Shown here piece by piece: positions 5,313 to 52,664 of a stretch of 64,000 nt of DNA. Location: assembly GCF_040958095.1 (NCBI RefSeq), contig NC_091173.1, positions 12,837,500 through 12,901,499 on the forward strand. Reading direction: 5' to 3'. The first letter of the stretch is position 1. Every line of letters begins with the position of its first letter. The position numbers were made by a program, and so were the translations under genes. The stretch comes from Procambarus clarkii (taxonomy: Eukaryota; Arthropoda; Malacostraca; Decapoda; Cambaridae). The notes below the pieces were generated by a model. The model saw nothing but the letters and a program-made list of their open reading frames with translations. It had not been told where the DNA came from and did not search any database.

Positions 5313-5414
5313 AAAAAACTTGACCTGACGACGCAAGACAAAAGTTTTGTCCCTATCAAGTCTAAGGACAAAACCTTAAGAGAACAGACGGCGTATATAT
5401 AAAGCCATTCAAAA

Positions 5415-5491
5415 CAGAGACCAATATATCTTACGGGCTATTCATGCCCGTGCCACCTCCTGGGTGGCTTAATCTTTATCAGAGACCAATA
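5415..5491 (+). mobile_element. Hairpin retroposon family B, 53-bp copy with 12-bp TSD
   Basis: The element (5427-5479) is flanked by perfect direct repeats CAGAGACCAATA at 5415-5426 and 5480-5491. Inside are two hairpins in a row. The first is ACGGGC/GCCCGT with a 7-base loop. The second is GCCACC/GGTGGC with a 5-base loop. A TTAATCTTTATCA 3' tail follows. There are no polymerase III A or B boxes and no open frame. Four further copies lie at 12.0, 18.3, 37.6 and 41.1 kb. The tail-end orientation is inferred from the longest copy at 37.6 kb. Confidence 0.85.
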
Positions 5492-7601: not shown

Positions 7602-8425
7602 ATTTTCCATCTGTACTTTAACTGGAGTCGGGTCGAGCCTATATTTGCAAGAATGATTACGTGTTATGCGAATGTGGTGATCGATAGGCCTTGATTGTGG
7701 AACAATGGGCAGTGTTTTAGTGATTAAGCTAGTGGATGTAATGTATAATGGGATTGAAAAAGACAACCTGTTAGTCACTGACCATATAAGCGTAGACGTG
7801 CAAACTATTACGATGAGCGGAGCCTGCCACTTGCCTCCTGCAACATCTTCAGTCAGTAGATGTAGACAGACTTCTCAGCAGGTTCTGCTGATCGTCGCTA
7901 CGGCAATAGTAAGACGTGTCTTCTAACTAACATAAATAGTGTGCAGGTATATTCTTACTGATTTAATTAATATGTGATTAAGGAAATAAATGCTGCCACC
8001 TATTGTATTGATTTTCTAAAGGTAATTTGTTTGTTTTTTTATTTTTTTTGGTGATTACTTGTATATGATTAAGTTCCATGATCTCATAACCAGTCATTCC
8101 TGTCGATTGGAACTAGGGGCCTTGCTGGCACTTTTCAAATTAAAGTGGTTATCACTCAATGTTGTGCAATTAGACTTTACTAATGAAGATTTTCAACTTT
8201 TACCAATAGTCTCATTGAGTTTCGACCTTGTACGATATCGGACTATAGGCAGACATTACGACATTTATTATTCAGCAGTAGGCTGAATTGGTGGGTGCTG
8301 GGCCTGTAGAGAGATAATTAGGATCATCAGTGCACTCATTCATTACCCCAGGCATAGGAGAAGGTCAGACGGAACCGAAGGCGACGTGGGAAGGTCAGGG
8401 GATGGTATAAAGGGCGGGAGAGGAC
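7602..8425. other. Unique sequence, no gene supported
   Basis: Open frames at 7705-7926 and 8059-8286 have no recognised family and no repeat similarity. Codon composition gives no clear coding signal by eye. Confidence 0.4.
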
Positions 8426-8628
8426 TAGGACATGGGTTACGGGCTCACCATAGCCCGTGCTACATGGACACTTCGTTCTGAGTAGCTAAATCTAAAAACA
8501 ACATAGGACATGTGGTTACAGCCCCGCTCCTGTGCCAGGCAAGTCCACTACGGGCTCACCATAGCCCGTGCTACTTTGGAACTTTTGTTCTAAGTAGCTG
8601 AATCTAAAACAACAACAACTAGGACATG
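8426..8628 (+). mobile_element. Two hairpin retroposons (family A) at one target site
   Basis: Three copies of TAGGACATG (8426-8434, 8504-8512, 8620-8628) flank two tandem family A elements, 8435-8503 and 8513-8619. Each has the hairpin ACGGGCT/AGCCCGT with loop CACCAT, then a second stem around CTAC...GTAG enclosing a GGAAC/GTTC-type core, then an AATCTAAA-AAC tail. The second copy has the longer 5' end (CCGCTCCTGTGCCAGG) and a clean (AAC)n tail. The shared duplication implies two independent insertions at the same site, or an insertion next to the first copy's TSD. Confidence 0.85.
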
Positions 8629-11788: not shown

Positions 11789-11964
11789 TCCTGTGGAGCC
11801 CGCGCGCCGCTCGAACTCTCGGTCGTCTGAGGACTCCAGACTAGGATATTTATCTGTTTCCAAATGATGGAGTTCTCGAGTGTTACCTTTCTAGTTCCCC
11901 TTCCTTGCCCTACTGCTCTTACCTTGATGACTCCCCACCTTCCTATGACTTGCCTGCGTGTCTA

Positions 11965-12357
11965 GCTACACCCACAGTGCCAGCTCTGCTTACTGATTAA
12001 CTGATGAAGATTAAACCACCCAAGAGGTGGCACGGGCATGAATAGCCCGAAATCTGCTTACCAAAAATGGCCCACTAGCTACTCGGATCAGTCGCCGAAG
12101 CCTCAGCGTTCGAGCAAGCTCGGCATCTCACCGATTTAAAGTTTGAGAAAAGGTTGAGGACGTTTCGTCCCCCAGGGCCTCTTAATCATTCCCTTTACCG
12201 GGTGAAATTCATCTCACGAGTTCCAGCTATCCTGAGGGGAAACTTTCGGAGGGAACCAGGTACTAGATGGTTCGATTAGTCTTTCGCCCCAAAACCCAGC
12301 TCCGACGATCGATTTGCACGTCAGAATCGCTACGGACCTCCACCAGTTTCCTCTGGT
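11965..12357 (-). pseudogene. 28S rRNA pseudogene fragment, split by a retroposon
   Basis: The minus strand matches a well-known conserved stretch of large-subunit rRNA. Recognisable words include GGGCGAAAGACTAATCGAAC, CATCTAGTA.CTGGTTCCCTC, GGATAGCTGGAACTCGTGAG, CTCAAACTTTAAATCGG, CTAGTGGGCCATTTTTGGTA and AGCAGA.CTGGC. There are many indels and substitutions (for example an extra base in GAGGGGAAACTTTCGGAGG), so it is not a functional gene. A 59-bp hairpin retroposon (11994-12052) is inserted in the GGTAAGCAGA region. Matching stops at about 12357 and before 11965. It is a partial copy, far from the usual full 28S length. Confidence 0.88.
11985..12061 (-). mobile_element. Hairpin retroposon family B inside the 28S pseudogene
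   Basis: The element 11994-12052 (59 bp) is flanked by perfect TCTGCTTAC repeats (11985-11993 and 12053-12061). That word is itself 28S sequence (GTAAGCAGA reversed), so both sides of the insertion belong to the rRNA pseudogene. It shows the ACCACC/GGTGGC and CGGGC/GCCCG hairpins in series and a GATGAAGATTAA end corresponding to the family tail. Confidence 0.9.
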
Positions 12358-12417
12358 GGGAGCCCGCGAAGCCTCCACGCTACATCTGTGAGCCGCGGTA
12401 CACTGGCTAAACAAGGC

Positions 12418-18249: not shown

Positions 18250-18337
18250 TGCATCCGACTGATTGATGAAGATCAAGCCACCCAAGAGGTGGCGCGGGCA
18301 TGAGAATAGCCCGTAAGAGGTAGTTACGCATCCAGTA
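18246..18337 (-). mobile_element. Hairpin retroposon family B, ~70-bp copy
   Basis: GATTGATGAAGATCAAGCC leads into GCCACC/GGTGGC and CGGGC/GCCCG hairpins. The flanks TTATGCATCC and TTACGCATCC (18247-18256, 18328-18337) differ at one base. It lies directly next to the family A copy. Confidence 0.75.
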
Positions 18338-22827: not shown

Positions 22828-23030
22828 TCTCCTGTTGTTATTGTTATAGATTCACCTACTCTGAACAAGTTCCAAGTAGCACGGACTATGGTGAGTCCGT
22901 AGCTTATCTGGCACAGGAGCGGGGCAAGTAGCACGGTCTATGGTGAGCCCGTAGCTGATCTGGCACAGGAGCGGGGCAAGTAGTACGGGCTATGGTGAGC
23001 CCGTAGTGGACTTACCTGACACAGGAGCGG
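22828..23030 (-). mobile_element. Hairpin retroposon family A with triplicated hairpin unit
   Basis: The tail-end (TTGTTATTGTTATAGATTC) and GAACAAGTTC hairpin are followed by three tandem ~52-bp units (about 22873-22924, 22925-22976, 22977-23030). Each has a CACGG.CTATGGTGAG.CCGTAG hairpin and a CTGGCACAGGAGCGG end. In unit one both stem strands are changed (ACGGACT/AGTCCGT), which keeps pairing. Unit two has a single unpaired change (ACGGTCT/AGCCCGT). Confidence 0.8.
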
Positions 23031-31513: not shown

Positions 31514-31627
31514 CAATGAAATCCACCGCTCCTGTGCCAGGTAAGTCCACTACGGGCTCACCATAGCCCGTGCTACTTGGAACTTGTTCCGAGTAGCTGA
31601 ATCTATAACAACAACAACAATGAAATC
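31514..31627 (+). mobile_element. Hairpin retroposon family A, 94-bp copy with 10-bp TSD
   Basis: The element 31524-31617 is flanked by perfect CAATGAAATC. In order it has CCTG/CAGG with a TGC loop, ACGGGCT/AGCCCGT with a CACCAT loop, a long stem CTACTTGGAAC/GTTCCGAGTAG with a two-base loop, and an ATCTATAACAACAACAAC tail. It is the best complete family A copy and serves as its reference. Confidence 0.92.
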
Positions 31628-36716: not shown

Positions 36717-36830
36717 TCCATGTCGTAGCTCAGTCGATTAAGGCAGCGTCTGGGATGCTCTCGGACGCAAGTTCGAATCCTCGTCACGGCCCTTGTGGAT
36801 TTGTACATCAGTAATAAGACCTGATTTTGC
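36717..36830 (+). mobile_element. tRNA-derived SINE, 'GTCGTAGCTCAG' family
   Basis: The tRNA-like head has TCGTAGCTCAGTCGATTAAG (A-box) and CGGACGCAAGTTCGAATCCT (T-arm and B-box). The tail CACGGCCCTTGTGGATTTGT follows. The anticodon arm region is irregular, so this is not a functional tRNA gene. Copies form the palindrome at 37.3-37.4 kb. Confidence 0.8.
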
Positions 36831-36928: not shown

Positions 36929-37029
36929 GAGAATCTTTCTGTTGTTATAGATCCAGCTACTCGGAATAAGTTCCAAGTAGCACGGGCTATGGTGAGCCCG
37001 TAGTGGACCTACCTGGCCGAGAATCTTTC
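36929..37029 (-). mobile_element. Hairpin retroposon family A, 79-bp copy with 11-bp TSD
   Basis: The element 36940-37018 is flanked by perfect GAGAATCTTTC (36929-36939, 37019-37029). It has a TGTTGTTATAGATCC end, the CTACTCGGAATAAGTTCC..GTAG stem, and the ACGGGCT/AGCCCGT hairpin. Confidence 0.92.
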
Positions 37030-37258: not shown

Positions 37259-37456
37259 GGCGAAGCTGAGGGAACAAATCCACAAGGGCCGTGACGAGGA
37301 TTCGAACCTGCGTCCTGGAGCATCCCAGACACTGCCTTAATCGACTGAGCTAGGGATGCTCCCGGACGCAGGTTCGAATCCTCGTCACGGCCCTTGTGGA
37401 TTTGTTCATTTGATGCATCACGTTATTGTGATCTCTGTGTGTGGCGAAGCTGAGGG
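37259..37456. mobile_element. Palindromic SINE with 14-bp TSD
   Basis: A perfect 14-bp duplication GGCGAAGCTGAGGG (37259-37272, 37443-37456) flanks a unit made of two SINE copies in opposite orientation. The minus-strand arm (37273-37353) covers tail to A-box. The plus-strand arm (37354-37442) starts at GGGATGCTCCCGGACG and runs to the tail end. The arms pair over about 55 bases around a spacer of about 25. Confidence 0.88.
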
Positions 37457-37603: not shown

Positions 37604-37785
37604 CGTAAGCACAGATGACTGATTGATAAAGATTAAGCCACCCAAAAGGTGGCACGGGCATGAATAGCCCGTAAGTGGTGGTGGCCCTATTGAGCCATTA
37701 CCAGTATCAAGAGCTGATACTGGAAATCTGTGGAGGTGCGACTGCACCCTGCGTGACGGGAGATGTCTCCCGTCGTAAGCACAGA
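37604..37785 (-). mobile_element. Hairpin retroposon family B, full 158-bp copy, five hairpins, 12-bp TSD
   Basis: Perfect CGTAAGCACAGA repeats (37604-37615, 37774-37785) flank 37616-37773. Inside are five successive hairpins. They are GCCACC/GGTGGC (37637-37653), ACGGGC/GCCCGT (37654-37672), CCAGTATCA/TGATACTGG (37701-37723), GGTGC/GCACC (37735-37748) and GACGGGAGA/TCTCCCGTC (37755-37774, two-base loop). In the inferred sense direction (minus) the unit ends AATCTTTATCAATCAGTCA. The shorter copies at 5.4, 12.0 and 41.1 kb retain only the two 3' hairpins, as expected of 5' truncation. No coding frame or polymerase III boxes are seen. Confidence 0.92.
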
Positions 37786-37814: not shown

Positions 37815-37865
37815 AGGAGGATATCAGGAAAAGAAATGACTATATAGCACTGTGCATAGGCTTGC
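37815..37865 (+). mobile_element. SINE body fragment ('GGACGGT' family)
   Basis: The block ATATCAGGAAAAGAAATGAC then TATATAGCACTGTGCATAGG resembles the ATCAGGAAAAAGCG..TATATAGCACTTGG body of the 3.1-kb copy. Only about 50 bp is recognisable. Confidence 0.5.
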
Positions 37866-37957: not shown

Positions 37958-38053
37958 TTTTTGCTGCTAGTGTATTACGCGCTCACTATAGCCCGTGCTA
38001 CATAGAAATTTTGTTCAGAGTAGCTGAAAATAAATCAACAACATTTTGTTGCT
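37958..38053 (+). mobile_element. Hairpin retroposon family A, decayed copy
   Basis: The element spans about 37970-38043 with CGCGCTCACTATAGCCCGTG, AGAAATTTTGTTCAGAGTAG and AAATCAACAACA tail. The flanks TTTTGCTGCT and TTTTGTTGCT differ at one base. The first hairpin has decayed (ACGCGCT against AGCCCGT). Confidence 0.75.
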
Positions 38054-40450: not shown

Positions 40451-41091
40451 TTACTAACTCGCCAGTATATTTTGTTCCAATGATATACAGTATCTCACCA
40501 AGAAGTATAACCCCAATGGTGTCGGTGTTATACACACCAGAGCTACTTTAGTCGTGGTTTACGTGTGAGTTATAATGGCACCGAACCCCTCTCAAGTTCC
40601 TATCTCTGTATCTACTTCTACAGTGCTCTTAAGAAGTAGATACAGAGAAGTAGATTTATGTCCCCTCCCCCCTCTCTTAACTTCACGCTCAGTTACTGCA
40701 CAAAGTGAGATCTCCGGCTCCCTCGTACACTCTGTATTGTCTTTTCGTCATAGCGGTTGTGCCCTCAAGAATGTAAAAGGCTTATATAATGCAAAGAGCT
40801 GTGTTCTGCCGGAGCCTCAGCCAGTCCATCGAGACAAAGACTGAGGGGCAGATATAGCCCAAGCTGCTTTGTCCCCTTTGAGATGTCTCTTATTGTCTCA
40901 ATAAACTCACTTGAACTTGAGACGAAGACTGTTAATGATATATGTCTCGAGTGACATACCCCGTGAACATAAAGAGCATATAAAGTGTATAAGACACTGC
41001 AGAAGGTCTACTGGCCTATACAAAGGCACCTGCAAATTATATGTCCCCTTTGCTTCTCACCTTTCTCTAGCCTATTTATTGCCTGCATTTA
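40451..41091. other. Unique sequence
   Basis: The stretch 40585-40660 contains inverted ATCTCTGTATCTACTTCT/AGAAGTAGATACAGAGA arms (40603-40620 and 40633-40649). No gene was recognised. Confidence 0.5.
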
Positions 41092-41168
41092 CTTCCTCAT
41101 CACTTACGGGCTATTCATGCCCGTGCCACCTCTTGGGTGGGTTAATCTTTATTAATCTTCCTCATCAC
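41092..41168 (+). mobile_element. Hairpin retroposon family B, 53-bp copy with 12-bp TSD
   Basis: The element 41104-41156 lies between perfect CTTCCTCATCAC repeats (41092-41103, 41157-41168). It carries the ACGGGC/GCCCGT and GCCACC/GGTGG hairpins and the TTAATCTTTATTAAT tail. It is the same 53-bp length as the 5.4-kb copy. It sits at the start of a foldback-family repeat (ATCACAATCGACTTGAG). Confidence 0.92.
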
Positions 41169-49706: not shown

Positions 49707-50887
49707 ACTCACCTAATTGTACTCACCTAATTGTGCTTGCGGGGGTTGAGCTCTGGCTCTTTGGTCCCGCCTCTCAACCGTCAATCAACTGGTGTACAGA
49801 TTCCTGAGCCTATTGGGCTCTATCATATCTACATTTGAAACTGTGTATGGAGTCAGCCTCCACCACATCACTTCCTAATGCATTCCATTTACTAACTACT
49901 CTGACACTGAAAAAGTTCTTTCTAACGTCTCTGTGGCTCATTTGGGTACTCAGCTTCCACCTGTGTCCCCTTGTTCGCGTCCCACCAGTGTTGAATAGTT
50001 CATCCTTGTTTACCCGGTCGATTCCCCTGAGGATTTTGTAGGTTGTGATCATGTCCCCCCTTACTCTTCTGTCTTCCAGTGTCGTGAGGTGCATTTCCCG
50101 CAGCCTTTCCTCATAACTCATGCCTCTTAGTTCTGGGACTAGTCTAGTAGCATACCTTTGGACTTTTTCCAGCTTCGTCTTGTGCTTGACAAGGTACGGG
50201 CTCCATGCTGGGGCCGCATACTCCAGGATTGGTCTTACATATGTGGTGTACAAGATTCTGAATGATTCCTTACACAGGTTCCTGAACGCCGTTCTGATGT
50301 TAGCCAGCCTCGCATATGCCGCAGACGTTATTCTCTTTATGTGGGCTTCAGGAGACAGGTTTGGTGTGATATCAACTCCTAGATCTTTCTCTCTGTCTGT
50401 TTCATTAAGTACTTCATCTCCTATTCTGTATCCTGTGCCTGGCCTCCTGTTTCCACTTCCTAGTTTCATTACTTTGCATTTACTCGGGTTGAACTTCAAC
50501 AGCCATTTGTTGGACCATTCACTCAGTCTATCCAGGTCATCTTGTAGCCTCCTACTATCATCCTCTGTTTCAATCCTCCTCATAATTTTTGCATCGTCGG
50601 CAAACATTGAGAGGAACGAATCTATACCCTCTGGGAGATCATTTACATATACCAGAAACAGTATAGGTCCAAGGACTGACCCCTGCGGGACTCCACTTGT
50701 GACGTCTCGCCAATCTGAGACCTCACCCCTCACACAGACTCGTTGTCTCCTGTTGCTTAGGTATTCCTCTATCCACCGGAGTACCTTCCCTCTCACTCCA
50801 GCCTGCATCTCCAACTTTCGCACTAGCCTCTTGTGTGGCACTGTATCAAAGGCTTTCTGACAATCCAAAAATATGCAGTCTGCCCAC

Positions 50888-50889
<2 letters not shown>
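49707..50889 (-). mobile_element. CR1/Jockey-like LINE, 5'-truncated, well preserved
   Basis: The minus strand begins at the edge of (AC)n (50891-50929) with RT coding sequence. It continues to a stop at about 49810 and ends with the 3' untranslated region TTGATTGACGGTTGAGAGGC, GGGACCAAAGAGCCAGAGC, CAAGCACAATTAGGTGAGTAC. The last ACAATTAGGTGAGT block is duplicated before (AC)n. The copy is bounded by AC repeats on both sides. The upstream ORF1, endonuclease domain and RT N-terminus are absent. Confidence 0.9.
49810..50889 (-). CDS. Reverse transcriptase, C-terminal 359 codons, open
   Basis: RNA-dependent DNA polymerase part of a non-LTR retrotransposon polyprotein. From the first codon at 50889 it reads GWADCIFLDCQKAFDTVPH (motif A region). 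Then come SGVPQGSVLGPILFLVYVND (motif B region), SMFADDAK (catalytic motif C), WLLKFNPSKCKVM, EKDLGVDI, and the C-terminal region ending FKCRYDRAQ. It is uninterrupted by stops or frameshifts, unlike every other copy in the window, so this is the youngest. The frame can be extended upstream through a HTHTHT microsatellite to 50979, but that start is artificial. No promoter or N-terminal domains remain, so it is probably not expressed as an active enzyme. Assignment to CR1/Jockey-like clades rests on motif recognition, not a tree. Confidence 0.9.

Positions 50890-50890
<1 letters not shown>

Positions 50891-50929
<39 letters not shown>
50891..50929. repeat. (GT)n microsatellite at LINE 5' junction
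   Basis: A 39-bp GT run at the 5' truncation point of the LINE. Confidence 0.96.
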
Positions 50930-51553
50930 GAATAAATTCCACCGTTTTGTAAAATGTAATAAAAAACAAATTCACCCATAAATCACCGATATAAATCACC
51001 GGAATATTGCGTCAGCCTGGCCTTCAAGACGGCTCTATTAGCAAATCGTATTATATCTTATGCTAAAGCTCACGTAATTTCTATTTAACATCAAAAGGTA
51101 CCAAATTACTAATTGAAACCTCTATACGACAGGATTAAAGTCTATGTAAAAGCGAAAGTGTAGAAATAAGCCCCAAAGTCAAAAAGACTTGAATTCCTCC
51201 GGATTTCACCAATTCATCTCAACAGCAAAGGGCGGTTTGTGGTTATACGTTTATACTGAGGATCGAAACTAGTTTCCTGACCATATTCCCTATCATTCTT
51301 TTAAGTGCAATCCGGTTATGCCATGGGGGGAGGGATAACTCCTAAACCATAGATTAATATAAAATATTTATAGGACAATTCTTGACTATTAATACAAATG
51401 AGTAGTTATTACTTTATATAAATTAAGCTAGGAGCCTCATGTAATTAGATTAATTAACATCTCTTGCCAGTAAATACAGAGATACCTGCGTGTATTAATA
51501 TAATCAGAACATGATATTTATGGAGGGTGTACATTACAGGAGATCGAGACAGC
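50930..51553. other. Unique AT-rich sequence
   Basis: No gene was recognised. Confidence 0.4.
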
Positions 51554-52565: not shown

Positions 52566-52664
52566 GAACGGAAGCTTACGGGGCTCACCATAGCCCGTGC
52601 TACATGGACATTTCGTTCTGAGTAGCTAAATCTAAAAGCAACAACAACAACAGGAATGGCAGCT
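52566..52664 (+). mobile_element. Hairpin retroposon family A
   Basis: TTACGGGGCTCACCATAGCC, CTACATGGACATTTCGTTCT and AGTAGCTAAATCTAAAAGC, then (AAC)n. The flanks GGAACGGAAG and GGAATGGCAG match at 8 of 10 bases, so the TSD is plausible but imperfect. It is closest to the first 8.4-kb copy (ATGGACA..TTCGTTCTGAG). Confidence 0.8.

Follow-up and report, generated by a model that had tools for sequence, protein, structure and literature searches.

The stretch of Procambarus clarkii DNA analysed here (the window, 64,000 nucleotides in length) contains a 158-bp sequence that consists of hairpins throughout and is enclosed by a perfect target-site duplication. A SINE would normally be expected to contain a Pol III promoter, and the insertion of LINEs and SINEs is usually loose. 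The locus raises the question of what kind of element this is, by which machinery it moves, where it inserts and how it comes to be transcribed.

Structure of the window element

The first-pass annotation of the window, made from the letters alone, placed a perfect 12-bp duplication around 158 bp, and its coordinates are exact: CGTAAGCACAGA occurs at 37604-37615 and 37774-37785 and flanks 158 bp (37616-37773). The description of hairpins throughout also stands, with the correction that the fold of the minus strand yields six of them rather than five. The ATCA-type tail had been recognized as well; it lies at 37616, so that the element reads on the minus strand. The hairpin with a two-base loop is present (9-bp inverted repeat, 37755-37763/37766-37774), although it borrows one base of the duplication. 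The 158 nt fold better than dinucleotide shuffles (z of -5.7 for the plus strand and -6.7 for the minus strand), with 0 of 200 shuffles as good on either strand. The parts of the element are the following.

37604..37615, no strand: target-site duplication, tail side (3' copy in the orientation of the element), identical to 37774-37785
37774..37785, no strand: target-site duplication beside the 5' end of the element, identical to 37604-37615
37616..37773, minus: 158-nt hairpin retroposon (family A, 158 form), with genome matches of equal extent
37756..37773, minus: hairpin 1, 7 bp (9 bp with the flanking base), 5' end of the element (fold)
37734..37749, minus: hairpin 2 (fold)
37701..37723, minus: hairpin 3, 9 bp (fold)
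37682..37697, minus: hairpin 4 (fold)
37654..37672, minus: hairpin 5, the first hairpin of the LINE-shared 3' module (fold and LINE comparison)
37637..37653, minus: hairpin 6, the last before the tail (fold)
37616..37636, minus: tail TTAATCTTTATCAATCAGTCA (sequence; (AATC)n ends other copies)
37616..37674, minus: 3' module, TTACGGGC through the tail, common to an RNase H LINE; its extent is that of the short form

The element, here called family A, shares with the classical SINEs (derived from tRNA, 7SL or 5S RNA) the small size, the lack of autonomy, the high copy number and the target-site duplications. It differs from them in having no internal Pol III A and B boxes beyond chance, as had been claimed from the window copy: the best A box in the extended consensus scores 7/9, which is matched by 38% of 500 shuffles, and the best B box 7/10, matched by 85%. 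Hence, no Pol III promoter of the kind that an internal piece of a SINE would show was found in the consensus, and because this test failed, family A is filed as a SINE variant rather than a classical SINE. A further difference is that the head of the element matches no known small RNA, the Rfam search having returned no family at the gathering score or at E-values up to 10; ARAGORN found no tRNA in the 64-kb window. Adjoining the 158-nt element, the stretches 37272-37403 and 36726-36808 contain inverted and direct copies of a sequence with a B-box-like GATTCGAACC, recognized by eye.

Families A and B and the partner LINE

The genome assembly that contains the window consists of 4.03 Gb in 2308 contigs. 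The genome search with the 158-nt element yielded 1245 first-look candidates. Forty of these were scored, and among them the 39 long matches other than the window copy start at positions 7-18 and end at positions 169-181 of the 182-nt query, with 95-97% identity. These 39 fetched loci are the copies nearest to the window copy and, for this reason, the divergence figures are biased low. For a 23-base core that covers the two 3' hairpins, exact matches number 11,115 in the forward and 11,115 in the reverse direction (each of these equal counts is possibly a lower bound), and its reversed control has none. Family A is thus present in thousands of copies in the genome. In a decapod survey, SINEs are described as rare in the studied genomes, with a low-divergence rise in both Procambarus species (PMC10454600). 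Exact matches to the family patterns were absent from IMG/VR and prokaryote genomes, which are non-decapod collections and have no bearing on the spread of the families.

The last ~60 nt of family A, i.e. the two 3' hairpins and the tail, are common to a LINE that encodes RNase H (Pfam PF00075, E = 3.1e-10; the sole domain seen in this partner). Among the core matches, 15 of the 30 in the first sample (several of these being near-duplicates) and 9 of the 46 in the second end coding-like RNase H sequence, and the 3' part of the LINE consists, in this order, of the RNase H, a C-terminal stretch, about 55 nt, the same two hairpins and an (AATC)n tail. The proposal, made from the window alone, of an RNA-derived mobile element with target-site duplications that shares a 3' stem-loop and a short tandem tail with a LINE, in the manner of the UnaL2-type pairs, is borne out by this comparison: family A is a non-autonomous, SINE-like retroposon with a 3' stem-loop and behaves as if dependent on a LINE. 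The enzyme of the partner LINE presumably moves the family A SINE, as the common 3' end suggests. At one locus (L114), a single duplication located downstream of a TATA-like box encloses LINE sequence fused to the 158 form, and this chimera can be read as the outcome of a template switch that occurred at the 5' end of the SINE RNA. Among the six LINE boundaries inspected by eye, only this chimera combines a duplication with a TATA-like box; the boundary at L099 has TATATCC 26 nt above the start and no clear duplication, and the other four show neither. The SINE head had no match in six 9.9-kb stretches around LINE copies, none of which is proven to contain a complete LINE.

The LINE-shared 3' end, the LINE-SINE chimera within one duplication, the variation of the 9-17 bp duplications from locus to locus and the variable (AATC)n tails all argue against two readings, a DNA transposon (MITE) rich in hairpins and a tandem-duplication artefact, which the hairpins and the location of some copies in arrays might call to mind but which can hardly be entertained.

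The annotation had also reported shorter members with two hairpins and the tail. There are four such copies in the window, so that the short form accounts for four of its five family A copies. These are listed below together with the copies of a second family, B, in which the first hairpin is similar to that of family A (TTACGGGCT...AGCCCGT), the second hairpin is different and the tail is (ACA)n.

5394..5403, plus: TATA box TATATATAAA, 8/8, 21 nt upstream of duplication CAGAGACCAATA
5431..5481, plus: family A short form, duplication CAGAGACCAATA (sequence comparison)
8406..8413, plus: TATA box TATAAAGG, 7/8, 20 nt upstream of duplication TAGGACATG
8437..8504, plus: family B short form, duplication TAGGACATG, with the similar first hairpin, the other second hairpin and the (ACA)n tail
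8549..8617, plus: family B copy adjoining the copy at 8437..8504, the same duplication being reused
11994..12052, minus: family A short form in a 28S-like rRNA fragment, duplication GTAAGCAGA, best TATA 4/8
18257..18324, minus: family A short form, imperfect duplication GGATGC(G/A)TAA, then a family B copy
31551..31616, plus: family B copy with 5' head CCGCTCCTGTGCCAGGTAAGTCCAC, duplication ACAATGAAATC
36940..37002, minus: family B copy, duplication GAAAGATTCTC
37975..38043, plus: family B copy adjoining the 158-nt element
41073..41080, plus: TATA-like box TATTTATT, 6/8, 19 nt upstream of duplication TTCCTCATCAC
41104..41157, plus: family A short form, duplication TTCCTCATCAC (sequence comparison)
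52583..52646, plus: family B short form

The 28S-like rRNA gene fragment (11963-12386, minus strand; Rfam LSU_rRNA_eukarya, 100.8 and 74.7 bits) is split by the short-form element that it contains. The window also harbours, at 49810-50982 on the minus strand, the reverse transcriptase ORF of a different LINE (Pfam RVT_1, 4.5e-24), followed by another repeated end, AATTAGGTGAGTAC.

The short members had been interpreted as the products of 5' truncation, an interpretation that is contradicted by the distribution of the 5' ends. Among 118 distinct core copies, 98 start at five points, one of which is that of the LINE: 17 copies at reference positions 1-3 (the 176-nt form), 8 at 12-15 (an intermediate form), 49 at 24 (the 158 form), 7 at 118-120 (the short form) and 17 at 114, the latter mostly LINE. 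The remaining 20 include ends of fetched pieces that were cut, copies with swapped or missing heads and ends that lie 2-3 nt off the main points. The copies do not run far past the ends defined by the duplications; some are ~22 nt longer, namely those of the 176-nt form. In contrast to the SINE, LINE copies start at scattered points (1163, 1219, 1284, 1306, 1392 and 1406 of the 1730-nt reference), as do ordinary 5'-truncated LINE and SINE copies. In the chromosome sample, 6 of the 46 copies are of the short form, one of these (L095) with no visible duplication, and in this sample and the window together, no short copy starts more than about five bases from TTACGGGC. Sequences in which the last hairpin and the tail lack the hairpin in front of them occur at 10 places genome-wide, six of which merely have an extra CCA before the hairpin, compared with 11,115 + 11,115 cores; the ratio is rough because the two patterns are unequal in length (29 versus 23 bases that are fixed or nearly so). 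A minimal hairpin parasite of a LINE, subject to ordinary 5' truncation and with no target preference, as first envisaged, would be compatible with the LINE-shared 3' hairpins, the tail and the duplications. The five preferred starts, the scarcity of copies with the last hairpin only and the TATA spacing in several forms described below make it highly improbable.

The variation within family A involves entire modules of the head: hairpin 1 is doubled in L116 and swapped for a different stem in L054 and L123, hairpin 2 is absent in L104, and the 5'-end sequences of the 158 and 176 forms differ. The stems vary less than the loops (1.8% versus 4.1% in 94 copies), as expected by the annotation. 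The covariation check that it proposed gave, in 94 copies and 44 pairs, with many of the copies picked for closeness, 0 compensatory, 54 one-sided and 94 broken cells, which weighs neither for nor against the stems. Some copies are joined or clustered. A junction of two family A units, TTAACACATTCACAAGGGAGAC, recurs in L049-L052, L058-L060, L085, L102, L110, L112, L117 and L118, and suggests a subfamily of dimers; several loci in this list overlap or are duplicates. Exact family A cores form a cluster of five at C1:5405655-5406486 (L053-L057) and one of four at C1:4919223-4919955 (L049-L052); some of these cores are 168-193 bp apart, with the same short target sequence between them. In the 5' flank of the L062 element, immediately upstream of it, the 5' extension recurs in partly inverted form (GTGACCAAACCAAAGTGGTGACCAAA before CACCATTTG), an arrangement that could arise if the cDNA folded back while it was being made.

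Family B, likewise, comes in short forms that start at or near TTACGGGC and in longer forms with a head. At L008, the first hairpin occurs six times in a family B head, once every 52 nt. Tandem repetition of a ~52-nt unit, composed of a hairpin and CCGCTCCTGTGCCAGGTAAG, was observed in the heads at L008:1162-1444 and in the window at 22836-23005 on the minus strand; the linkers, where seen, contain the 5' splice-site-like CAGGTAAG, and the family B head stretch CAGGTAAGT also resembles a 5' splice site.

The recurrence of a few 5' ends could mean that the forms do not reflect fixed transcription starts but are RNA fragments shielded against nucleases, either by stable stems or by LINE proteins that sit on the 3' hairpins, so that the templates begin at the base of a hairpin, with the TATA targeting being a separate matter. 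The starts of the 176, 158 and short (58-nt) forms indeed lie at, or within 2 nt of, the base of a predicted hairpin, and the short forms of both families begin at TTACGGGC. The 5' ends of the 158 and 176 forms, however, differ in the manner of subfamilies rather than of trimmed products, and the origin of the RNA itself is left without explanation, so protection of fragments seems a doubtful source of the forms.

Insertion sites and TATA-like boxes

The position of the insertions was analysed on loci delimited by a duplication. The starts examined (80 A158, 16 A176, 21 A165, 71 family A TTACGGGC, counting those inside long copies, and 20 family B, the classes overlapping) gave 70 loci, which were retained when a duplication was found within 5 nt of the canonical start. 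Setting aside 14 of these (12 flagged as nested, one TA microsatellite and one duplicate) left 56 loci; the final set comprises 55, with L041 recognized as not nested and the two L049 entries, which represent one element, as a false duplication inside the head. These 55 loci were picked for the duplication, regardless of TATA. The duplications differ between loci and range from 9 to 17 bp, 45 of the 56 being 10-12 bp long.

Upstream of these duplications, the mean composition at -20 to -16 is T.47, A.49, T.53, A.51, W.87 (55 loci). A match of at least 6/8 to TATAWAWR is found 17-24 nt upstream in 34 of the 55 loci, compared with 6 to 12 in eight control windows farther upstream, and one of at least 7/8 in 18, compared with 1 to 4; the 56-locus set gives the same picture (34 versus 7-12, and 18 versus 1-4 at 7/8). 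By form, the TATA-positive loci amount to 19/35 for the 158 form, 8/11 for the 176 form, 7/8 for the short form and 0/1 for the family B short form. The first T of the box is about 20 nt from the start of the duplication and about 31 nt from the first base of the element, in the sense orientation. The 21 loci that lack a 6/8 match include the 158-nt copy of the window, above which the best TATA score is 5/8 (a TATA miss), and the copy in the rRNA fragment (4/8). Insertion antisense to a promoter was also considered and rejected: the 3' flanks of the 56 loci contain no comparable TATA signal on either strand. Among the duplication-defined loci of family B, 8 of 16 have a TATA match versus 1 to 3 of 16 in controls, with one of the eight located in a TA microsatellite and one in the tail of another element.

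The same spacing emerges from genome listings, in which TATAWA was sought 16-46 nt before the canonical start (allowing spacings of 22-52), with the bins for the peaks picked after the peak was seen and the expectations derived from a binomial with uniform spacing. The 158 form has 1164 + 744 such near-window matches genome-wide; among the matches listed (the first 100), which contain 82 elements or 68 without identical sequences, the nearest TATA lies at 28-33 nt in 47 of the 68 distinct sequences, against 13 expected, the choice of the nearest TATA slightly favouring short spacings. For the 58-nt form (982 + 624 matches), 64 of the 79 elements among the first 100 matches listed, with identical sequences still included, fall at 28-33 nt, with a mode of 31 and 15 expected. 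The peak is less clean in family B than in the 158 and 58 forms: the short form has 693 + 439 near-window matches, and among the first 100 listed, 42 of 62 elements lie at 27-33 nt (14 expected) once two clusters, taken as duplicates by their coordinates, are collapsed, whereas before the collapse the count is 43 of 86, with 28 of the 86 at 25-26 nt (mode 26) that come from the clusters. In the far window (56-86 nt), there are 334 + 103 matches for the 158 form and 545 + 332 for the 58 form, many of those listed being TA microsatellites. The raw counts, 1908 near versus 437 far for the 158 form and 1606 versus 877 for the 58 form, show a weaker contrast than the distinct elements among the matches listed in the same chromosome span, 82 to 6 and 79 to 25, respectively. 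Several of the TATA boxes are provided by a repeat with GACTATATAGCAC (window 37838-37850; TATATAGTCGTAATGGCTT in the genome lists), which may itself be a promoter-bearing repeat.

Elements also gather at the same sites, as would be expected if an upstream TATA box keeps steering insertions to one place. In at least 8 of the 70 loci, the 5' duplication directly follows another A or B element; this number is what is left of the 12 flagged as nested after setting aside L041 (false), L085:153 and L117:180 (dimer junctions) and L123 (not directly abutting). Elements share one duplication in L008 and L015 (CAACTTGAAGCA), L129 (CACTAATGTC) and L053 (CTCTGGAGGC). A 158 form (L037) and a 176 form (L062) occupy the same GAATAGCAAAC site below one repeated TATATAAG sequence, and L117 has the same 3' flank as these two, with an ambiguous 5' side.

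In the 19 strongest loci, the TATA box is 19.6 nt (sd 1.5) from the start of the duplication and 31.7 nt (sd 2.6) from the element. Because the former distance is the tighter one, it is the nick that seems to be measured from the TATA box. A purine directly follows the duplication in 26 of the 34 TATA-positive loci (38 of the 55 overall), and the YR dinucleotide at the junction is weakly enriched (22 of 56 versus a 23% background, with two other offsets giving 20). Proteins of the R2 type bind DNA near their nick, and the main rival explanation holds, accordingly, that TATA-like DNA is simply a motif to which the LINE protein binds some 20 bp from the nick, such that promoters are incidental and no transcription is captured. 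The tighter spacing to the first nick than to the start site fits this possibility, as do the weak YR start signal and the occurrence of several sites in repeats rather than in recognized genes. The boxes, nevertheless, are found in the sense orientation only and at the Pol II distance, 26 of the 34 TATA-positive loci have a purine at +1, and an element that lacks its own promoter still needs to be transcribed. Binding to a plain motif is thus a serious, even if unlikely, possibility.

Proposed promoter capture and comparison with known elements

The best explanation for these observations is probably that family A is a promoter-less, LINE-dependent retroposon family that is targeted to TATA core promoters and transcribed from the captured promoter. 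The enzyme of the partner LINE would copy the SINE RNA by target-primed reverse transcription, with the 3' hairpins providing a handle for the LINE protein, and the head hairpins may shield the 5' end of the RNA. A LINE protein that reads the TATA box, or else the initiation machinery, would steer integration to the TATA core promoters of Pol II. In the open complex, the DNA is melted from about -11 to -1; the duplication would span roughly -11 to -1 of the promoter and so correspond to the melted region. The new copy would then sit at the start site, where the captured host promoter could transcribe it from its first base, and the RNA made in this way would move to the next promoter. Transcription from such a captured promoter would explain how an element that lacks its own promoter comes to have fixed 5' ends. 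The broader proposition is that a non-LTR system, probably comprising a LINE and at least two SINE families, integrates where Pol II TATA promoters are melted for initiation and lives by promoter capture, with the first base of each insertion placed at +1, the next RNA made by the host promoter with that very 5' end, and newcomers stacked at the same promoter; it might equally turn out right or wrong.

Several of the features of family A have counterparts in known systems. UnaL2 belongs to the L2 clade, and the non-LTR machinery of R2, SART1 and others has a preferred target. The target of family A differs from these in being a short promoter motif at a fixed distance rather than one gene sequence, and, unlike in the R2 type, the duplications vary between loci such that only the TATA box and the spacing recur. 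With respect to Pol II core-promoter targeting, insertion occurs at a fixed place relative to the TATA box, and the initiator is weak. The sharing of a 3' stem-loop and a tandem tail between SINE and LINE is the same as in the stringent-type systems of UnaL2 with its SINEs and of ZfL2 (PMC4176376); family A differs from these pairs in its head of hairpins that lacks Pol III boxes, the RNase H of the partner and the TATA spacing. The integration of Tf1 and Ty1/Ty3 (Pol III genes) is also promoter-guided (compare PMC5911963), whereas family A has no LTRs, carries 9-17 bp duplications and LINE tails, and inserts in the sense orientation at the presumed start site. The trypanosomatid SINE-like and SIDER elements (Pr77), like family A, are short non-autonomous relatives of LINEs (PMC4748587 and PMC8190864); they have a promoter of their own at the 5' end, whereas in family A none is recognized and the host TATA box lies outside the element.

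A literature search by sequence string and by topic, which covered mainly abstracts, few subscription journals and no Repbase, brought up neither a LINE or SINE targeted to TATA boxes nor a named family that matches.

To our knowledge, no TATA-targeted LINE or SINE has been described. If the favoured explanation, targeting to TATA core promoters with promoter capture, is true, these elements embody a novel answer to the problem of how short retroposons are transcribed and a novel mode of targeting for the non-LTR machinery, with a possible use as a tool for placing sequence at Pol II start sites. For the genome of P. clarkii, it would account for several elements gathering at one site, and the insertions would mark candidate TATA start sites across the 4-Gb genome.
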